Source: an uncultured Lachnospiraceae bacterium (GTDB taxonomy: Bacteria > Bacillota > Clostridia > Lachnospirales > Lachnospiraceae). Taken from it: a stretch of 64,000 nt of DNA. Under the pieces are notes generated by a model. It had not been told where the DNA came from and made no database searches. It was given only the letters and a program-made list of their open reading frames with translations. Shown here one piece after another: positions 3,201 to 60,259 of this stretch. The position numbers were made by a program, and so were the translations under genes. The DNA is taken from contig CAMNSD010000009.1 of assembly GCA_946554445.1 (NCBI GenBank), forward strand, positions 1 to 64,000, written 5' to 3'. The stretch's first letter is position 1. Every line of letters begins with the position of its first letter.

Positions 3201-4167
3201 TGTATATGCTGATTCCTTTCACATACTCAGGGTATGGACTTGTTTTCTTGCACTTTATTTTTTGTTTGATATGATTGATATCGAACGTGCTGTTCTCATA
3301 AAACAAATTATTTACGCCAAAATAATTGTTTTGGCAAATGGTATGGATGTTGTAAGAAGGAACCACGCCTCCGATGGCGTATCCGTTCCTGTATAGAAAA
3401 CAGTCTTCGTAAGACAGCCAATAACATCTCCGGTAAGGTTCCGCTAATTCCGGAAGGGAACCTGTGATGCTGGAATCCATAATTAAAAAGGCACCAGAAG
3501 AAGGCGGCTTTACGTTAAAATATTCTTTAGGGAAGCTGTCGTCCCAGCCAATAATCAGCGCGGAATGGGCAAAGCGGCCTTTGGTATCGGTGCAGTATAA
3601 TGCGGAATGAGCCTGATTATAATCTTTTTCATCATAAGCTAAGGAAATAGGAACTCCGCTATATGCCTGTAAGGCAGATTTTATCCAGTTTCTTTTTTTA
3701 TCTCTGTAGGCGCCAGAAATTTTTTGCATATTATAAATATCCGTCACATAATAAGCTTTTGGCTTTCCTTCTGTTTCTGCCCAAGTTCTTTTGGTAGGCG
3801 TCATATCCTTCTGGAATTTGTCATAATCATTATATACCACGCCGCTGCCCCGGCTTAAATAGGCGCCGGTGATACCAATCAGATCATTATCTTTGGGAGC
3901 GGGATAAATGATCTCGTCTTTAACTTGAGGATTAAACCCATAGATATTTTTATAGGTATCCTCTTGAAAGATATTAAAGCAGGAATATTTGGCATGTACT
4001 TCCGACAGACGCAGATTTTCTCTCGTTTCATTCTTAAATTTGCGCAAAATTGCAATTTCTACGGCCCGGCACATGGAAAAGGACCAACACATATTGCTAT
4101 ATTCCTGGGACCTTCGGATAGGGACATGTTCTTCTTCAATAAAGTATTTTTCCGGTAAATCAGCCAT
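274..4167 (-). CDS. C1 (papain-like) peptidase domain protein with transmembrane segment and C-terminal beta-helix-like repeats
   Basis: 1297 residues. The N-terminus carries a papain-like core: oxyanion Gln21, a Cys-Trp-Ser-Phe-Ser box with Cys27, a Leu-Ser-Glu-x-His helix near 54-58, and the catalytic-His segment AHSALIIGWDD with His201. The usual Asn-Ser-Trp box reads MDSS, with Asp231 in the place of the catalytic Asn. A beta-rich region follows to about 650, as in surface C1 proteases with a lectin-like domain. Then comes one hydrophobic helix (about 660-681). The region from about 740 to 1180 is a ladder of repeats of the kind (I/V)xxCxVxxxSxxAGI, typical of a right-handed beta-helix or GLUG-type repeat. 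No N-terminal signal peptide is visible, which is odd for a surface protease. The start is set by AAAGGAGG 11 bases upstream. Protease activity is uncertain because of Asp231. Confidence 0.75.
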   Translation of the reverse strand: MADLPEKYFIEEEHVPIRRSQEYSNMCWSFSMCRAVEIAILRKFKNETRENLRLSEVHAKYSCFNIFQEDTYKNIYGFNPQVKDEIIYPAPKDNDLIGITGAYLSRGSGVVYNDYDKFQKDMTPTKRTWAETEGKPKAYYVTDIYNMQKISGAYRDKKRNWIKSALQAYSGVPISLAYDEKDYNQAHSALYCTDTKGRFAHSALIIGWDDSFPKEYFNVKPPSSGAFLIMDSSITGSLPELAEPYRRCYWLSYEDCFLYRNGYAIGGVVPSYNIHTICQNNYFGVNNLFYENSTFDINHIKQKIKCKKTSPYPEYVKGISIYSAIENTIVSASIIKEQKGEETVEKVVEWKELKEGGYHMLWAADTKKILLDEAVQSYQVEIELKHKSVNLPYSIESTSGVRNVNTQITPLENGTQFICDISLDNKYTDICSLENNSLGRLSIKVITVPADDAWDSLQTFTEQLNLPAAMESKVGNLQTASSDKKIQIKWSMPDAMKDVSIENQNTIINKSDKDVKLLLMAELTIQGAKEKYAVQKFFHTSIKPARLMLDPITSPEKGQNKFTIKGKSPFGQSQVTLYAKKNSGNDEDALMASAFGDDYDDWQNIKNVNPKADGSFEIQNCSLGMCCGTFSIKAICNGITSNWVSLTIQNPNDVDDKTKTVIISTAFGLSLLLVIGTSIYLGYQYYLKKQRYRMRPEWFIFIRLKYWVLRGFSCAELENGCQSLDEDSRPVIVLEDSGLENTLINEMIDSSITGIDFEIGVNCRLIDKMSENSSLENCRFIYTENKGRDRIVPLVKKMDHSSMKNCQISAEVYGQDNGWFYGIAESAFNSTIEGCSVNLKCTDSSQNYNYAGIANEISDHTTIRDCKVQCSLIGASVAGICIQASNSTITDCQVTEHSALTGTNAGGFLVSGSNTKIQNCQFEGSLSVMQPLKDKHCLGGIAGSLQNGCLIENCSSKIEPRISSQDGSVHLGGIVGTADASKITLCAAEIGCYYGSGIYFGGIAGMVSGGTEITKCFVSTEDMGMESQSGYMFGGICSETKESAVIADCLCSLPSVKNVYAAGILYDAPENNQITIRNCCMAGSIWADLAAGITAAKIHSLAGCIVASAYLHGSKTGTYKISPKQDATSCFAYGGIQTEAGAAFLDEDTASTRKAEAFFKQETYEEMGWDFANTWEMDSERHFPKLKNMPLEQCYPFPFPYVIPPASGETYLFSADEFVQFRGYVSPRHTRISWSLHADNRNGMRQESELYRMVREDVFHIYVGKLLPGEYRFEMKVCIDGIIVTIEKQIKVEKKKD

Positions 4168-4264: not shown

Positions 4265-5831
4265 TCAATTTTGGCACCACAGACAGGAAAGATTGTAATC
4301 CGAACCATATATGTACAAATACTCGATTTTTGTCTCAAACCATATATTTTCTGCATGGCTTGCGCGAAATCTTTCAAACGCTTCCAGATATTCTTCGGGC
4401 ACAACATATGCTGTCCGTGAATGATATGGCATATTGGGCACATACCAATCCGTGCTACTCAACCATTTGCACATATCCATACTCTCCATAGAGCCAACCG
4501 CCGCGCCGCGTACAGCCCCCTGCGACAACACGGTTATCACATTGCCCTTATCAAAACTCGTATATGCTATTTCGTAATGATTCTCCTGCAAATATTTACA
4601 CACTTCGTATTCTGCCGATTTTGCAGGCTCTTTACTTTCCATAACAGGTAAATAGATTTCACGAATCTGGAAAATAAGTAAATACAATACCAAAGCACAG
4701 CCAACGACACGAAGGTAACTCGCCTTTTCATGAACCCAATGCATAAAACGGATAAATCCAAAAGCCATGATAGGAAAGATTAAAAAATAATATCTCTTGG
4801 AAGACTCCATGGTTGTAAAGGCAACCGCTGCCATCGTGGCGCCAAGTGATATCCACAGCAGAATATATGCCCAGATCAGCGGCTTTTGCCCCCCCCCCAC
4901 ACTCCTCATTCTTTTTGAAAAGTTGAATCATACAGCCGATCAACACCCCTATCGCAACCAACAAAAAGCAAACAGGTACGACTCTCCCCACACCTTCAAC
5001 ACCCATAAATCCCATAGCCTCAAACACATGCGGCATCACTTTCTCCCACAGCTTTGGAAAACCCTTTCTGATATTTCTGGAAATCTCCTGCCCGACGGAA
5101 AATGGCGCAAAAGTGCCAGCATACCCCGCAAGCAGTAAAAGCGTACACCAGCCTGCTATATAACCATCTCTTTTTTTCCATTCTTTTTTATACCAAAGGA
5201 CGATTTGTCTTACTATCTCTGTCGCAAACATCGGTGCATTGAGCACTAAAATTCCCCGCAGCCCCTGCATTCCAATCGTAAATGAAGAAAGGATAAGAAG
5301 TACCTGCCAGACACCGTGAACACGCGCATTGCCAAGAAGCCTTACATAAACTCCCAGTGTAAGAAACAATAAAATAATATGAACTGCATAATACGAACAA
5401 AACAGATAAAACAATTCCAGCATCACAAAATGATTGGGAAGTATCAGACACAGTAACAAAAACAATAGTTTTTCTTCCCGCCGAAAAGAAAATTGAGAGA
5501 CAAAAAAATAGAGACTTCCCAAAATACCGAACGTCAAAATACTACTCGCACATCCCATGGCGAACTCTATATTGTGAAACACGCCATAAAACAATGCGCC
5601 CAGATTAGCCGAAGAAAGAATTCTATATTCTGTAGACGGTATCCATGATTTGGGGATCGCCTCCCCGCTTTCCCATATAAGCTGTGCGAGTACCACTTCG
5701 GAAGCGATATCCGCATTCATTCGATAACAGTAATGAAACAGGTTTGTGTATACAATCAATCCCGTCACCAATAAAACTGCACCAAATAAGAATACCTCAT
5801 AAACTTTTTCGATTTTCTTTTGTACCGACAT
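4265..5831 (-). pseudogene. Multi-pass membrane protein (GT-C glycosyltransferase-like), split by a 10-G tract frameshift
   Basis: Two overlapping reading frames make one protein. The first runs leftward from 5831 through a string of hydrophobic helices to Asn-Glu-Glu-Cys-Gly-Gly-Gly at the tract 4898-4889, then reads out of frame to a stop at 4728. The second frame (4909-4265) picks up right at the tract with GGQKPLIWAYILLW and continues with more helices and a soluble tail. Removing one G (nine instead of ten) joins them into about 520 residues. The N-terminal Asn-Ala-Asp-Ile-Ala-Ser-Glu loop after the first helix resembles the acidic first loop of GT-C-fold membrane glycosyltransferases, but I do not recognise the family. 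The ATG at 5831 has AGGAGGG 14 bases upstream; a TTG at 5855 keeps the frame open but has no ribosome binding site. It may be a true pseudogene, a phase-variable gene, or a sequencing error. Confidence 0.6.
4889..4898. repeat. Homopolymer of ten C (ten G on coding strand)
   Basis: A mononucleotide run inside the broken membrane protein gene, exactly where the reading frame must shift by one base. Runs of this length slip readily during replication. Lengths of nine or twelve would restore the frame. Confidence 0.95.
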
Positions 5832-7712: not shown

Positions 7713-8354
7713 ATGAAGGAACTCATTAAGATTCACTCCAAAAGCCACCCCAACATCGAGTTGAAGGCAATCCACGGACATTTTGTAACCCCCAACTCCC
7801 ATATCAATCACTTTCTGGATATGACCACCATGAAGACTAGATTGAGCGAGGCATCCACCGCTGCCAAGGAACTGAGCAGACAGATCATGCTGTCTACCGT
7901 CGTGGATACCATCGTCTGCATCGACGGCTGCGAGATCATTGGCGCATTTTTAGCAGAAGAATTGACAAGGGCTGGCGTATATTCCCGAAATGCACACCAG
8001 ACAATCTATATTGTCACACCGGAGTACTCCACTTCCGGACAGATGTTATTCCGCGATAATTATCTGCCTATGATCAAAGATAAGAATGTACTGCTCCTCT
8101 TGGCTAGTGCAACCACCGGGCGCACTGTTACCAAGGCGGTACAGACATTGACCTATTATGGGGCAACCATCAGCGGCGTGAGCGCAATCTTCAGCGCCGC
8201 CAACAGCGTGGTGGGGATTCCGATCAACTCCTTATTCAACACATCCGATATCCCGGAGTACAAAACTTACAGTCCTGAGGAATGTGCCCTGTGCAAGGAA
8301 AAACAACCTATTGATGCTTTCGCAAATGCATATGGCTATTCTTCCATACAATAA
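7713..8354 (+). CDS. Phosphoribosyltransferase family protein (orotate-PRTase-like)
   Basis: 213 residues. A type I phosphoribosyltransferase fold is suggested by the order VDTIVCIDGCEIIGAFLAEEL (substrate loop and helix, about 60-80), a flexible loop, then KNVLLLLASATTGRTVTKAVQTLTYYGA (about 125-150). In the last of these, ASATTGRT stands where PRTases carry the PRPP-binding (D/E)DxxTTG motif; the two acidic residues are replaced by Ala and Ser. A Cys-pair-like ECALCKEKQPID element lies near the C-terminus, as in PyrE-related proteins of Lachnospiraceae. The substrate is unknown. The ATG at 7713 is preceded by GGAGG at ideal distance, and an in-frame ATG at 7707 is too close to it. A good promoter lies upstream and a cluster of structured repeats follows directly. 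Confidence 0.75.
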   Translation: MKELIKIHSKSHPNIELKAIHGHFVTPNSHINHFLDMTTMKTRLSEASTAAKELSRQIMLSTVVDTIVCIDGCEIIGAFLAEELTRAGVYSRNAHQTIYIVTPEYSTSGQMLFRDNYLPMIKDKNVLLLLASATTGRTVTKAVQTLTYYGATISGVSAIFSAANSVVGIPINSLFNTSDIPEYKTYSPEECALCKEKQPIDAFANAYGYSSIQ

Positions 8355-8357
8355 CAA

Positions 8358-8540
8358 AAGTTAATTTGCTTCGCAAATTAACTTTGCGAGATCCGCTTCG
8401 CGGACTCGGATAAGCGAAAGATATTTTCCTGTGACATAGAAAAGTATTTTTGCGAGGACTGCTTCGCAGCCTCGGATAAGCGAAAGATATTTTCCTGTAA
8501 CATAGAAAAGTATTTTTGCGAGATCCGCTTCGCGGACTAT
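8358..8540 (+). repeat. Structured intergenic repeat, locus A: one leading hairpin plus three 66-bp tandem units
   Basis: A perfect 12-bp hairpin with TTC loop (8358-8384) is followed by units beginning GCGAG at 8386, 8452 and 8518, period 66. Each unit folds as CGAG-A-TCCGC-TTC-GCGGA-CTCG. The middle unit reads CGAGG-A-CTGC-TTC-GCAG-CCTCG, with both sides of the stem changed together. The stem is followed by GGATAAGCGAAAGATATTTT; the third copy is cut after its hairpin. Related copies lie at 21371-21445, 31797-31940 and 60193-60259. It fills the gap between the phosphoribosyltransferase and the MATE gene. Confidence 0.9.
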
Positions 8541-8575
8541 GACATTAAATCTTTATTAGTGAGAGATGACGCAAA

Positions 8576-9937
8576 ATGCAGGTATCCTTTCTGGCTAAAC
8601 ACAGTAAAGAAAATATCCTTGTCACTTTCAATATGGCATGGCCATCCATTGTGGAATCTTTTTTCGTGGCTTTCGCCGGACTGGTGGACTCGCTGATGGT
8701 CAGTTCCCTTGGCTCTTATGCAGTAGCCGCCGTGGGACTTACCACACAGCCTAAGTTCATCGGTCTGGCGTTGTTCTTTGCCCTGAATGTAGCGATTTCA
8801 GCATTGGTAGCAAGAAGACGGGGCGAGGAAAAGCCTTATGAGGCAAATCGGATTCTCAGTACTGCCATTGTTTTTATCATCGTGGCGGCAGTTCTTCTGA
8901 GCGTCCTTTTTGTTATGCTGGCAAGTCCCATCATACACCTGTGCGGTTCCACGCCGGAAACTCATGACAGCGCCGTGGCTTATTTCCAGATCATCATGGG
9001 CGGCATGATCTTTAACTGCATCCAGATGGGTATTAATTCCGCCCAGAGAGGCGCCGGCAACACAAAGATTACCATGCGCACCAATGTGACATCCAACACG
9101 GTGAATATCATTTTTAACTATCTGCTGATCAATGGTCACCTGGGCTTTCCCGCCCTGGGCATCCATGGCGCAGCTCTGGCAACTGTCCTGGGAACAGTCG
9201 TTGCCTGCATCATGAGTATCCTCTCCATCTTGAAACCAGATGGTTTCATCAGTCTCCCTTATATTATGAAAAACCGCGTTGTGCCCGCCATGGAGTCTTT
9301 CGTACATTTGATCAAAGTCGGTTACAGTGTGTTCTTTGAACAGCTTCTCATGAGAATCGGTTTCATGCTGACAGCAATCATGGCAGCAAAACAGGGGACT
9401 GACGCCATGGCAGCCCATCAGGTGGGAATGAATATCATGGGACTGTCTTTCTCCTTCGGTGACGGACTGCAGGCGGCCGCTGTGGCGTTGATCGGACGCA
9501 GTCTTGGCGCCGGGGATGAGAACCTTGCCAAGGAATATGGCCGCATATGCAGGATGTTCGGCGGCATTATTTCCGCATTCCTTGCGGTCGTTTACTTTGT
9601 GGGCGCCGCACCGCTGATGCGTCTCTTCTTTGCGGAGGAACACATTGTTGCTATCGGCGTGAATATCATGCGCGTCATCCTCTTCGTTGTGGTCTTCCAA
9701 ATCAGCCAAGTAGTCTATATGGGCTGTCTGCGCGGCGCGGGAGATACCTTCTACACCGCTGTGGCCTCCACCATCAGCGTCACCTTTATCCGTACCATCG
9801 GCTCTGTTGTGGGCGGTTACGTGCTGGGATTTGGCATCGTAGGTATTTGGCTGGGCGTTCTGGCAGATCAAATCTCGCGTTTCCTCTTTGCCTCAACGCG
9901 GTTTAAAAAGGGTAAGTGGACACAGATCAAAATATAA
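8576..9937 (+). CDS. MATE family efflux transporter
   Basis: 453 residues, the usual MATE length, with twelve predicted membrane helices in two halves. Family features include the N-terminal ITWPSIVESFF-like first helix, the GAGNTKITMRTNV loop after helix 4 to 5, and the matching C-terminal-half segment RGAGDTFYTAVASTISV. It is expected to export cationic drugs or metabolites using Na+ or H+. The start ATG has only a weak GAGAGATGA upstream; the repeat array ends about 35 bases before it, so the promoter may lie in or next to the repeats. It is one of three MATE genes in this window. Confidence 0.9.
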   Translation: MQVSFLAKHSKENILVTFNMAWPSIVESFFVAFAGLVDSLMVSSLGSYAVAAVGLTTQPKFIGLALFFALNVAISALVARRRGEEKPYEANRILSTAIVFIIVAAVLLSVLFVMLASPIIHLCGSTPETHDSAVAYFQIIMGGMIFNCIQMGINSAQRGAGNTKITMRTNVTSNTVNIIFNYLLINGHLGFPALGIHGAALATVLGTVVACIMSILSILKPDGFISLPYIMKNRVVPAMESFVHLIKVGYSVFFEQLLMRIGFMLTAIMAAKQGTDAMAAHQVGMNIMGLSFSFGDGLQAAAVALIGRSLGAGDENLAKEYGRICRMFGGIISAFLAVVYFVGAAPLMRLFFAEEHIVAIGVNIMRVILFVVVFQISQVVYMGCLRGAGDTFYTAVASTISVTFIRTIGSVVGGYVLGFGIVGIWLGVLADQISRFLFASTRFKKGKWTQIKI

Positions 9938-21344: not shown

Positions 21345-21370
21345 CCCCACCGCCATATCTGCTTATAAAA

Positions 21371-21445
21371 AAGGTAAATTCCTTCGGAATTAACCTTACG
21401 AGATCCGCTCCGCGGCCTCGAATAAGCGGATAACTTTCCTATACC
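21371..21445 (+). repeat. Structured intergenic repeat, locus B
   Basis: Single copy. Leading hairpin AAGGTAAATTCC-TTC-GGAATTAACCTT (21371-21397, one mismatch), then the second hairpin CGAGATCCGC-TCC-GCGGCCTCG (21399-21420), then AATAAGCGGATAACTTTCCT. It lies between the gpmI terminator and the ytr-like promoter, in plus orientation. Confidence 0.85.
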
Positions 21446-31721: not shown

Positions 31722-31940
31722 GATAACCCGGACACTTCTCCGAAGCCGTGAAGCAGATTTTGCAATTCAATAAAACAATCGAGCACAGTTCCTCTTTATA
31801 TAATATAAGAAAATCCACCGCATATCCGAGTCTGCGAAGCAGATCTCGTAATCGAGCGCAGCTCCCCTTTTATAATATAAGAAAATCCACCGCATATCCG
31901 AGTCTGCGAAGCAGATCTCGTAATCGAGCGCAGCTCGATT
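31722..31940 (-). repeat. Structured intergenic repeat, locus C: two 74-bp units plus a degenerate third
   Basis: Read on the minus strand from 31940: the leading hairpin AATCGAGC-TGC-GCTCGATT (31940-31922), then CGAGATCTGC-TTC-GCAGACTCG, then GGATATGCGGTGGATTTTCT. The unit repeats with period 74 (TATAATATAAG at 31797 and 31871). A decayed third copy lies at about 31722-31790. The stem pair is CTGC/GCAG where other loci have CCGC/GCGG. Confidence 0.9.
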
Positions 31941-32059
31941 TTTTATCATATCACCTATAAAGAAAAGACCTCTATATTACGATATATAATGTAACAGGTG
32001 GGTATTTGCGTCCACTGCAGGTAAATGGATTTACAGATCATGCTAAGGAGGGCAAAGTC

Positions 32060-57477: not shown

Positions 57478-57506
57478 TTGCATTACGCTTCAAAGTAGAT
57501 TATGAT
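57478..57506 (+). promoter_or_regulatory. Promoter of the cobalamin riboswitch operon
   Basis: TTGCAT (57478-57483), a 17-base spacer and TATGAT (57501-57506), ending seven bases before the riboswitch. Confidence 0.6.
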
Positions 57507-57513
57507 GATACAA

Positions 57514-57660
57514 GAACAGGTGCCCGCAAGGGAGAATAGGGAAGTAAGTTACACTTCACGGTCACGCCGCTGTATGGGAGGAGTGCAGATCGATATGCCA
57601 CTGGGAAACCGGGAAGGCGCATCTGTGCCGGGATACCTTAGTCAGAATACCTGCCTGTTT
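57514..57660 (+). ncRNA. Cobalamin (B12) riboswitch
   Basis: The order of conserved segments fits the cobalamin riboswitch: P1 strand AACAGG (57515-57520), GTGCCCGCAAGGGAGAATAGGGAA, CACGGTCACGCCGCTGTAT, GGAGTGC, the B12-box-like ATGCCACTGGGAAACCGGGAAGG, AGTCAGAATACCTGCCTGTT closing P1 (57654-57659). A terminator about 50 bases downstream suggests transcriptional control: B12 present, operon off. Confidence 0.93.
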
Positions 57661-57710
57661 GGGTAAAATCATGTGTTACGAGGGATGACAGCATGATGAT
57701 AGCTTAGTTT

Positions 57711-60135: not shown

Positions 60136-60192
60136 AAGTCCCATCCATAAATATATCCATATAAAAAAAGTAATTTGCTCCGCAGAATAACA

Positions 60193-60259
60193 AATCGAGC
60201 AAGCTCGATTGCGAGATCCGCTTCGCGGCCTCGGATAAGCGGAAGACTTTCCTATACCA
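60193..60259 (+). repeat. Structured intergenic repeat, locus D
   Basis: Leading hairpin AATCGAGC-AA-GCTCGATT (60193-60210), the same stem as at locus C. Then GCGAGATCCGC-TTC-GCGGCCTCGG (60211-60233), ATAAGCGGAAGACTTTCCTATACC. Single copy, between the GNAT gene and the palindrome of the DUF4143 gene. Confidence 0.9.

Follow-up and report, generated by a model that had tools for sequence, protein, structure and literature searches.

Proteobacteria, cyanobacteria and streptococci are well-known carriers of small hairpin-forming repeats. The small dispersed repeats (SDRs) of cyanobacteria are very small, hairpin-forming and dispersed, and the ERIC and Correia elements are longer and have terminal repeats. 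The double-hairpin elements of Allomyces mitochondria are likewise hairpins inserted between genes.

In the portion of the REP literature drawn on here (PMC3733652), REP elements often lie downstream of coding regions and are plausibly RNA elements, and those tagged with CGTC are also said to lack a dedicated transposase; the words Firmicutes and Clostridi are absent from the main text of that source. As far as the relevant sections of PMC3049150 describe them, BOX elements are structured if transcribed and vary between strains, placement at stop codons is not among their features, and the ERIC and Correia palindromic repeats lie in transcribed regions and are reported to trigger transcript cleavage. 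SDRs are named in the part of PMC3116915 used here, and the corresponding part of PMC2800124 describes repetitive hairpin-forming and double-hairpin mitochondrial elements that lie between genes and insert in tandem, as well as sponge elements whose stems are conserved while their loops vary.

The repeats described here come from a window of 64,000 nucleotides (contig CAMNSD010000009.1, positions 1 to 64,000, forward strand) of an uncultured Lachnospiraceae bacterium. The closest described kinds are the REP and BOX elements; the family works like such repeats and is not classed as either. Like REP, BIME and REPIN sequences it consists of short imperfect palindromes that are extragenic, clustered and present in high copy number (132 matches at E ≤0.1, with 99 of 107 sites outside gene calls). 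Unlike them, it has two different hairpins per unit, forms head-to-tail arrays, shows GTAG or CGTC at the hairpin foot in no more than 5 of the 115 copies parsed, and has no linked Y1 transposase, although the existence of CGTC-type REPs without a transposase means that this absence alone cannot separate the family from REPs. With the BOX elements of Streptococcus (boxA-boxB(n)-boxC) it shares the character of a small, modular interspersed repeat with a tandem middle module of variable number, but the modules differ and the likeness is one of architecture, at the level of kind. The SDRs, compared by general description, differ in their cyanobacterial taxon, and ERIC and Correia elements are set apart, again by description, by their length and terminal repeats. 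In contrast to the sponge mitochondrial elements, here the stems covary and a TTC loop is usual.

Organization of the array

A tandem array at 8357-8540, reported in a preliminary description made from the sequence alone, is borne out by the sequence and by a repeat search. The gene upstream of it (7713..8354, + strand) encodes 213 aa and is orotate phosphoribosyltransferase-like by a weak match (NCBIfam TIGR01367, 32.7 bits with E 5e-8, where the curated cut-off is 150); a Pfam search with it gave no match, and its close relatives (81-97% identical) come from uncultured bacteria, Lachnospiraceae bacteria and isolates such as 0.1xD8-71 and 1xD42-87. The co-oriented downstream gene (8576..9937, +) encodes a MATE family transporter (Pfam PF01554, E 1.6e-54). 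The TAA stop of the upstream gene occupies 8352-8354 and is followed, after 2 nt, by the first hairpin.

This 5′ module, hairpin A (AAAGTTAATTTGC-TTC-GCAAATTAACTTT, 8357..8385, +), heads the array in single copy and covaries in other copies of the family. Its arms (8357-8369 and 8373-8385) are 100% complementary, in keeping with the perfect hairpin first described, although they are 13 nt long and not 12. Hairpin B follows at 8387..8408 (+) as CGAG-A-TCCGC-TTC-GCGGA-CTCG with a one-base 5′ bulge, and then, as judged from sequence and predicted fold, a conserved GATAAGCGAAAG and a spacer (8409..8452, +). The second hairpin B, at 8453..8474 (+), is the compensatory variant CGAGGACTGC-TTC-GCAGCCTCG, and the third, at 8518..8540 (+), is truncated to its upper stem (covariance model score 23.1 bits), with TCCGC-TTC-GCGGA intact and the lower stem, CGAG/CTAT, broken. 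The 66-bp spacing of the three reported units therefore stands, although only two units are complete. The stem change between units 1 and 2 is indeed compensatory, but the bulged A, which had been thought to stay in place, moves by one position (A-TCCGC/GCGGA to GA-CTGC/GCAG-C).

Folded as RNA, the region 8352-8560 has a predicted energy of -69.2 kcal/mol (z -5.8), with none of 200 shuffles equally stable, and part of this stability comes from the inter-unit spacers pairing with each other. The spacers between the B hairpins (8409-8452 and 8475-8517) are each nearly self-complementary, and it is these that pair mutually in the predicted fold.

Membership of an Rfam RNA family was considered and rejected, in that the sole Rfam match in the window is a cobalamin riboswitch at 57501-57672 (85.9 bits), and the best sub-threshold match at 8300-8600 reaches 17.1 bits where the gathering score is 88. 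An origin as a phage or plasmid element was rejected as well, the array having no match in phages or plasmids; viral contigs gave 0 exact matches of two core patterns, a search that overlooks variant copies. Neither Rfam nor the open-licence literature searched yielded a described family, in agreement with the preliminary description.

Other elements in the window and their modular structure

The hairpin B core was said to recur at 21.4, 31.8 and 60.2 kb, and this proved correct. With up to 3 mismatches allowed, the core pattern has 6 matches in the window, against a chance expectation of 0 in 100 shuffles. Two lie inside the array, whose middle unit is too diverged for the pattern, and the others are at 21,397 (+), at 31,827 and 31,899 (-, two units) and at 60,210 (+). 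The match at 21,397 belongs to a single element at 21370..21445 (+, 81.4 bits; right border set by eye) composed of hairpin A, hairpin B and a tail, TTTCCTATACC, and this element is antisense to both called neighbouring genes. The two-unit element at 31812..31941 (-, 49.3 and 41 bits) has as its 5′ module a different hairpin, C (AAATCGAGC..GCTCGATT). At 60164..60258 (+) is a three-hairpin element with a partial A, then C, B and the tail (50 bits for 60192-60248; outer borders set by eye).

The general anatomy was derived by reading about 50 copies together with part of the 128 copies in the same genome. Elements are modular and approximately 65-110 bp long, each with a 5′ hairpin of type A, type C or both, followed by a hairpin B whose loop is TTC and whose stem is asymmetric by one base on the 5′ side. 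Hairpin A has the form xxxxGTAAATTCC-TTC-GGAATTAACxxxx, in which an A.A mismatch recurs; hairpin C either replaces A or follows it; and hairpin B has the form CGAG-n-CCGC-TTC-GCGG-CTCG, in which the 5′ arm is longer by one base. Hairpin B is followed on its 3′ side by GATAAGCG and in some copies by the tail, which a fuzzy match finds at 16 of the 107 sites in the genome. Arrays consist of B alone or of A+B repeated head-to-tail. At the stop codon of the NifU-like gene that precedes the GGGtGRT gene, loci L239, L240, L242 and L247 have two or three A modules in tandem before B, showing that hairpin A can multiply independently.

Size and distribution of the family

BLAST with one unit gives 49 matches in the genome from which the window is taken. 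A covariance model (R1) was built from 14 equal-length seed copies, with 66 positions and 20 pairs, and finds at least 132 matches there at E ≤0.1 among the best 150 of 1963 candidates scored, a list that is loose at this threshold and also incomplete. At E 0.001 there are 120 copies, among loci covering 128 of the 132 matches. Element copies were seen at contig ends in three loci of this genome (L019, L020 and L035); the assembly may therefore break at the repeats, and the copy number is perhaps underestimated.

Among genomes of the same genus, this one included, 32 of 37 have matches at E 0.001, the search of relatives using stricter filters and scoring at most the best 85 candidates per genome; within those limits the number per genome ranges from 0 to more than 80. 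None of 24 genomes from other families of the order has a match at E 0.001. In a sample across the whole family, with the best 13 candidates per genome scored, matches at E 0.0001 turn up in 6 of 397 genomes, representing 4 of 334 genera; three of the six genomes are of the same genus, and the other three have 1-2 weak matches each (35-40 bits). As far as these searches indicate, the repeats are largely restricted to one genus of Lachnospiraceae. Among the weak matches outside the genus, one in a spacer between fabG- and fabF-like genes (L150) looks homologous by eye.

Covariation of paired positions

In the seed alignment, 7 of the 20 pairs have changed on both sides, with 19 two-sided and 0 one-sided cells, while slid controls give 0 to 1 two-sided pair. 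The two larger alignments were fitted to the model and so lean towards structure (slid controls are 29-49% paired): among 120 copies from the same genome, 18 of 20 pairs have changed on both sides, 95.5% of 2199 cells are paired, and there are 283 two-sided cells (33 one-sided) against a shuffled mean of 71; among 60 copies from relatives, 16 of 20 pairs covary, 96.2% of 1146 cells are paired, and there are 155 two-sided cells (13 one-sided) against a shuffled mean of 38. Recent identical duplication is ruled out by this covariation in both sets. The covariance-model search proposed in the preliminary description has thus yielded a large, genus-wide and strongly covarying family, and the copies first seen are neither the only ones nor invariant between genomes.

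The following counts of pair types omit one poorly paired position beside the bulge, unpaired in 52 of 118 copies of the same genome. The 2081 cells from this genome comprise 1995 Watson-Crick pairs, 40 G-U, 19 A-C and 27 other combinations, and the 1091 cells from relatives comprise 1062, 12, 11 and 6, respectively. Overall G-U occupies 52 of 3172 cells, compared with 30 for A-C; it exceeds A-C in the genome of the window (40 to 19, p 0.009; 14 to 4 at its stop-codon sites), but not in the relatives (12 to 11, p 1.0). Pairing is thus maintained with hardly any wobble, unlike in many RNA families. So few G-U pairs speak weakly for selection on a sense RNA, and their rarity is compatible with a cause of the pairing at the level of DNA. 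The earlier attribution of the paired changes to selection for an RNA or cruciform structure is partly borne out, the covariation being strong, but it is not the sole reading, given that G-U is rare and favoured over A-C only in the one genome. That description also overlooked the filled and empty sites of this dispersed repeat and the link of its placement to stop codons.

A different reading is that the hairpins matter as DNA, either selected as cruciforms or as single-stranded sites for a nuclease or transposase, or shaped during replication by hairpin-templated (template-switch) mutation. The large excess of two-sided over one-sided changes in all three alignments speaks for this reading, as do the rarity of G-U, which in the relatives does not rise above A-C, and the many antisense copies. 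Templated correction, however, should erase imperfections in the stems, and these persist: the A.A mismatch of hairpin A is present in 59 of 72 parsable copies of the same genome and 38 of 53 from relatives, and a parser that requires the 2-to-1 asymmetry in hairpin B accepts 106 of 120 and 51 of 60 copies, respectively, of which 24 and 7 read as an internal loop and not as a clean bulge. Such persistence argues against passive perfection of a palindrome, and the excess of G-U over A-C in the genome of the window is a further point against the DNA reading. A DNA-level origin is compatible with mobility and overlaps with the explanation that we favour below; we take it seriously, albeit as rather unlikely.

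Location of elements relative to genes

The 128 matches in the genome represent 107 sites, of which 8 overlap a called gene and 99 lie outside; genes were called by a codon-usage heuristic in element-bearing loci only, and some were missed. At one site (C12:43202) the upstream reading ends in MINLQAL followed by a stop codon that the gene caller left unassigned. Relative to the element, the upstream and downstream neighbours of the 99 sites are same/same at 34, opposite/opposite at 26, same/opposite at 22 and opposite/same at 14, with one neighbour missing at 3. There is no strong overall bias in orientation, and the striking feature is position. With a stop site defined as an element start approximately -9 to +6 nt from the stop codon, 45 of the 107 sites lie at the stop codon of a co-oriented upstream gene, out of 59 that have such a gene, whereas 1540 of 93180 intergenic strand-positions in the same loci (1.65%) would qualify, a null that rests on the heuristic gene calls in element-bearing loci. 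The first paired base is most commonly 2 nt after the stop (16 of 36 A-type sites). A similar open reading frame test in relatives places 20 of 34 elements at stop codons; these 34 are mostly best matches, and the 14 that fall elsewhere include later array units.

The stop codons at the 36 A-type stop sites are TAA in 29, TAG in 4 and TGA in 3, compared with 133, 56 and 64 among 253 background stop codons, and TAA is thus enriched. A TAA-rich 5′ flank is also present in 20 of 45 A-type copies away from stop codons. TAA as a plain DNA target is nonetheless disfavoured, in that 22 of 42 TAA-flanked A-type copies lie at stop codons whereas 110 of the 2243 intergenic TAAs in the element-bearing loci are stops, and TAG and TGA are used too; a looser count of 29 of 49 includes stops inside the element. 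Given the enrichment at stop sites, some preference for TAA may still exist. Several elements provide the stop codon from within their own sequence, as the TGA of xTGAAG or the TAA of GTAA. In L181 (1416-1481) and L199 (1451-1515) the called upstream frame enters the element, and the element would in that case encode the final codons as well as the stop.

Elements occupy the spacers mutS/mutL (L189 in this genome, L148 in a relative), atpE/atpF (L205), oadB/oadA (L208 and L065), minC/minD (L172) and groES/groEL (L067, where the copy is a later array unit), and that between a gene with a weak NifU match and GGGtGRT (L178). Ordinary intrinsic terminators, or hairpins derived from them, would also follow stop codons, and at C12:43202 a hairpin that looks terminator-like by eye takes the place of the element in three of four relatives, the fourth being unalignable. 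Yet copies such as those in atpE/atpF and mutS/mutL are inside operons, and none of 115 parsed copies (13 of the 128 were not parsed for this or for the tag tests below) has TTTT in the 8 nt that follow hairpin B or 6 T in the 10 nt that follow it. A strict scan moreover finds that 9 of the 45 stop-site copies have a separate forward terminator in the next 250 nt, compared with 0 of the 42 whose upstream gene is opposite and 4 of the remaining 20. We consider it very doubtful that the elements are terminators.

New copies might be targeted to gene 3′ termini as such, arriving preferentially at the stop codon and in the sense orientation. The route would then be one that recognizes the ends of genes, such as translation-linked cleavage or an RNA intermediate, or else function would strictly require a double hairpin directly against the terminating ribosome. 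Either would be unlikely in our estimation; if true, it would define a new class of stop-codon-anchored structured mobile RNA. At 42 of the 107 sites the upstream gene has the opposite orientation and the element cannot act at the 3′ end of that gene, a point against the explanation that we favour below.

Filled and empty sites

A query for the NifU-like/GGGtGRT gene pair matched 70 of 77 genomes of the genus, and 30 loci were extracted, of which 14 are filled, 1 is partial and 15 have no element. In the 14 filled loci the elements begin at the stop codon, and both unit number and stems vary between species; the partial locus has a lone hairpin B within other sequence; and among the 15 unfilled loci the spacer is 30 nt or less in 12 and longer in 3. 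At atpE/atpF, 5 of 30 extracted loci have an element, with that of the window's genome included and with 3 of the 5 sharing identical or nearly identical DNA, while the others have unrelated, partly palindromic spacers. The atpE/atpF loci L267, L268 and L269 are 100% identical (rounded) between this genome and genomes G478 and G459, for which two other regions are only ~76-90% identical, the result of either recent transfer or assembly cross-contamination.

Comparisons with four related species at individual sites show similar variation. At the site of the window array a single element is present in one species and no element in two, and in the remaining one just 7 nt stand where ~200 would be; at the 21,370 site a 3′ remnant is all that one species has, and the other three are without an element. 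In genome G486 a spacer matching the latter site (L305) is ~1 kb long, with an XRE-like regulator/methyltransferase gene by eye and no element. C12:41852 is empty in three relatives and has other sequence in the fourth, and C12:48130 has a different, longer version in one and none in three. The relatives compared are mostly ~76-90% identical in syntenic stretches, and gain is therefore indistinguishable from loss. The borders between filled and empty sites are ragged, at some sites other sequence stands in the element's place, and no clear target site duplication, a feature that together with terminal inverted repeats and a related transposase would mark a MITE, was seen in the empty/filled pairs compared. 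Twelve of the 34 elements from relatives share an upstream flank with a site in the window's genome, 10 of them strongly, at 7 distinct sites.

Diverged copies at one site in several species, together with the strong covariation and the placement behind stop codons in operons, might point to a structured regulatory RNA that arose and was kept independently at each gene end, binds a trans-acting protein, and is not mobile. It is difficult, however, to accommodate in this way the very similar copies at unrelated sites, the empty sites in related species, the tandem multiplication, the 42 sites with an opposite upstream gene, or a range of 0 to more than 80 matches within one genus (best 85 candidates scored), and we think such an RNA quite improbable.

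The search for a mover covered one enzyme family, that of the Y1 transposases (Y1_Tnp, PF01797). The window's genome has one open-frame match and one that is interrupted by stops, with no element at either locus. Across the genus, Y1 matches are confined to 29 of 77 genomes and are lacking in element-rich ones such as G001, G002, G013, G014, G027 and G032, where element matches number 29-44; no element was found in the 31 Y1 loci scanned, which are part of the listed matches and have flanks of up to ~1.5 kb. Small size, bulged imperfect palindromes, intergenic location, more than 100 copies and clustering would all suit classical GTAG-type REPs or REPINs moved by a REP-associated tyrosine transposase (RAYT), but the pattern of Y1 matches would not, nor would the foot of hairpin B (≤6 nt), which among the 115 parsed copies has GTAG or its complement in 4 and CGTC or its complement in 1. 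GTAG occurs near the model start in 5 of 115. We regard this identity as extremely improbable.

Possible mobility and function of the elements

The explanation that we favour, and consider probable, is that these are non-autonomous, REP/BOX-like mobile repeats, largely restricted to the genus and enriched at cistron 3′ ends, where they probably serve as mRNA 3′-end or intercistronic structures. Dispersal, filled and empty sites, differences in unit number, covariation and stop-codon placement are all evident at the level of sequence. The short, imperfectly palindromic repeats would be moved by some enzyme; their copies lie between genes and can multiply head-to-tail. Since the enrichment is exactly at the 3′ ends of co-oriented genes, many copies would be transcribed as tandem stem-loops behind the stop codon, before the terminator of the gene or the ribosome-binding site of the next, and two or more stem-loops could form immediately after the terminating ribosome. 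As with BIME, ERIC and Correia elements, for which transcript effects are reported in the sections of PMC3049150 used here, transcribed copies may act as RNA, affecting the stability or processing of mRNA 3′ ends by protecting or cutting the message, and may set the relative expression of genes within operons. Preferential retention or insertion at cistron 3′ ends fits the data, and an effect on mRNA ends would explain their retention at the same sites (mutS/mutL and oadB/oadA) in more than one species.

The family offers a clean system in which to ask by what means hairpin repeats lacking a known transposase spread, and if they turn into functional modules of mRNA 3′ ends, with filled and empty sites in conserved operons such as atpE/atpF providing natural experiments. 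We also noted a second two-hairpin repeat, of the same plan and other sequence, in L073 (~4640-4760) and L074 (~3464-3600), it too behind a stop codon. It comprises AAATCG..CGATT, CAGAGAATGC-TCC-GCATTCTCC and GTCGCAATTTCCTATA.., is partly duplicated in L074, and suggests that a wider superfamily exists.
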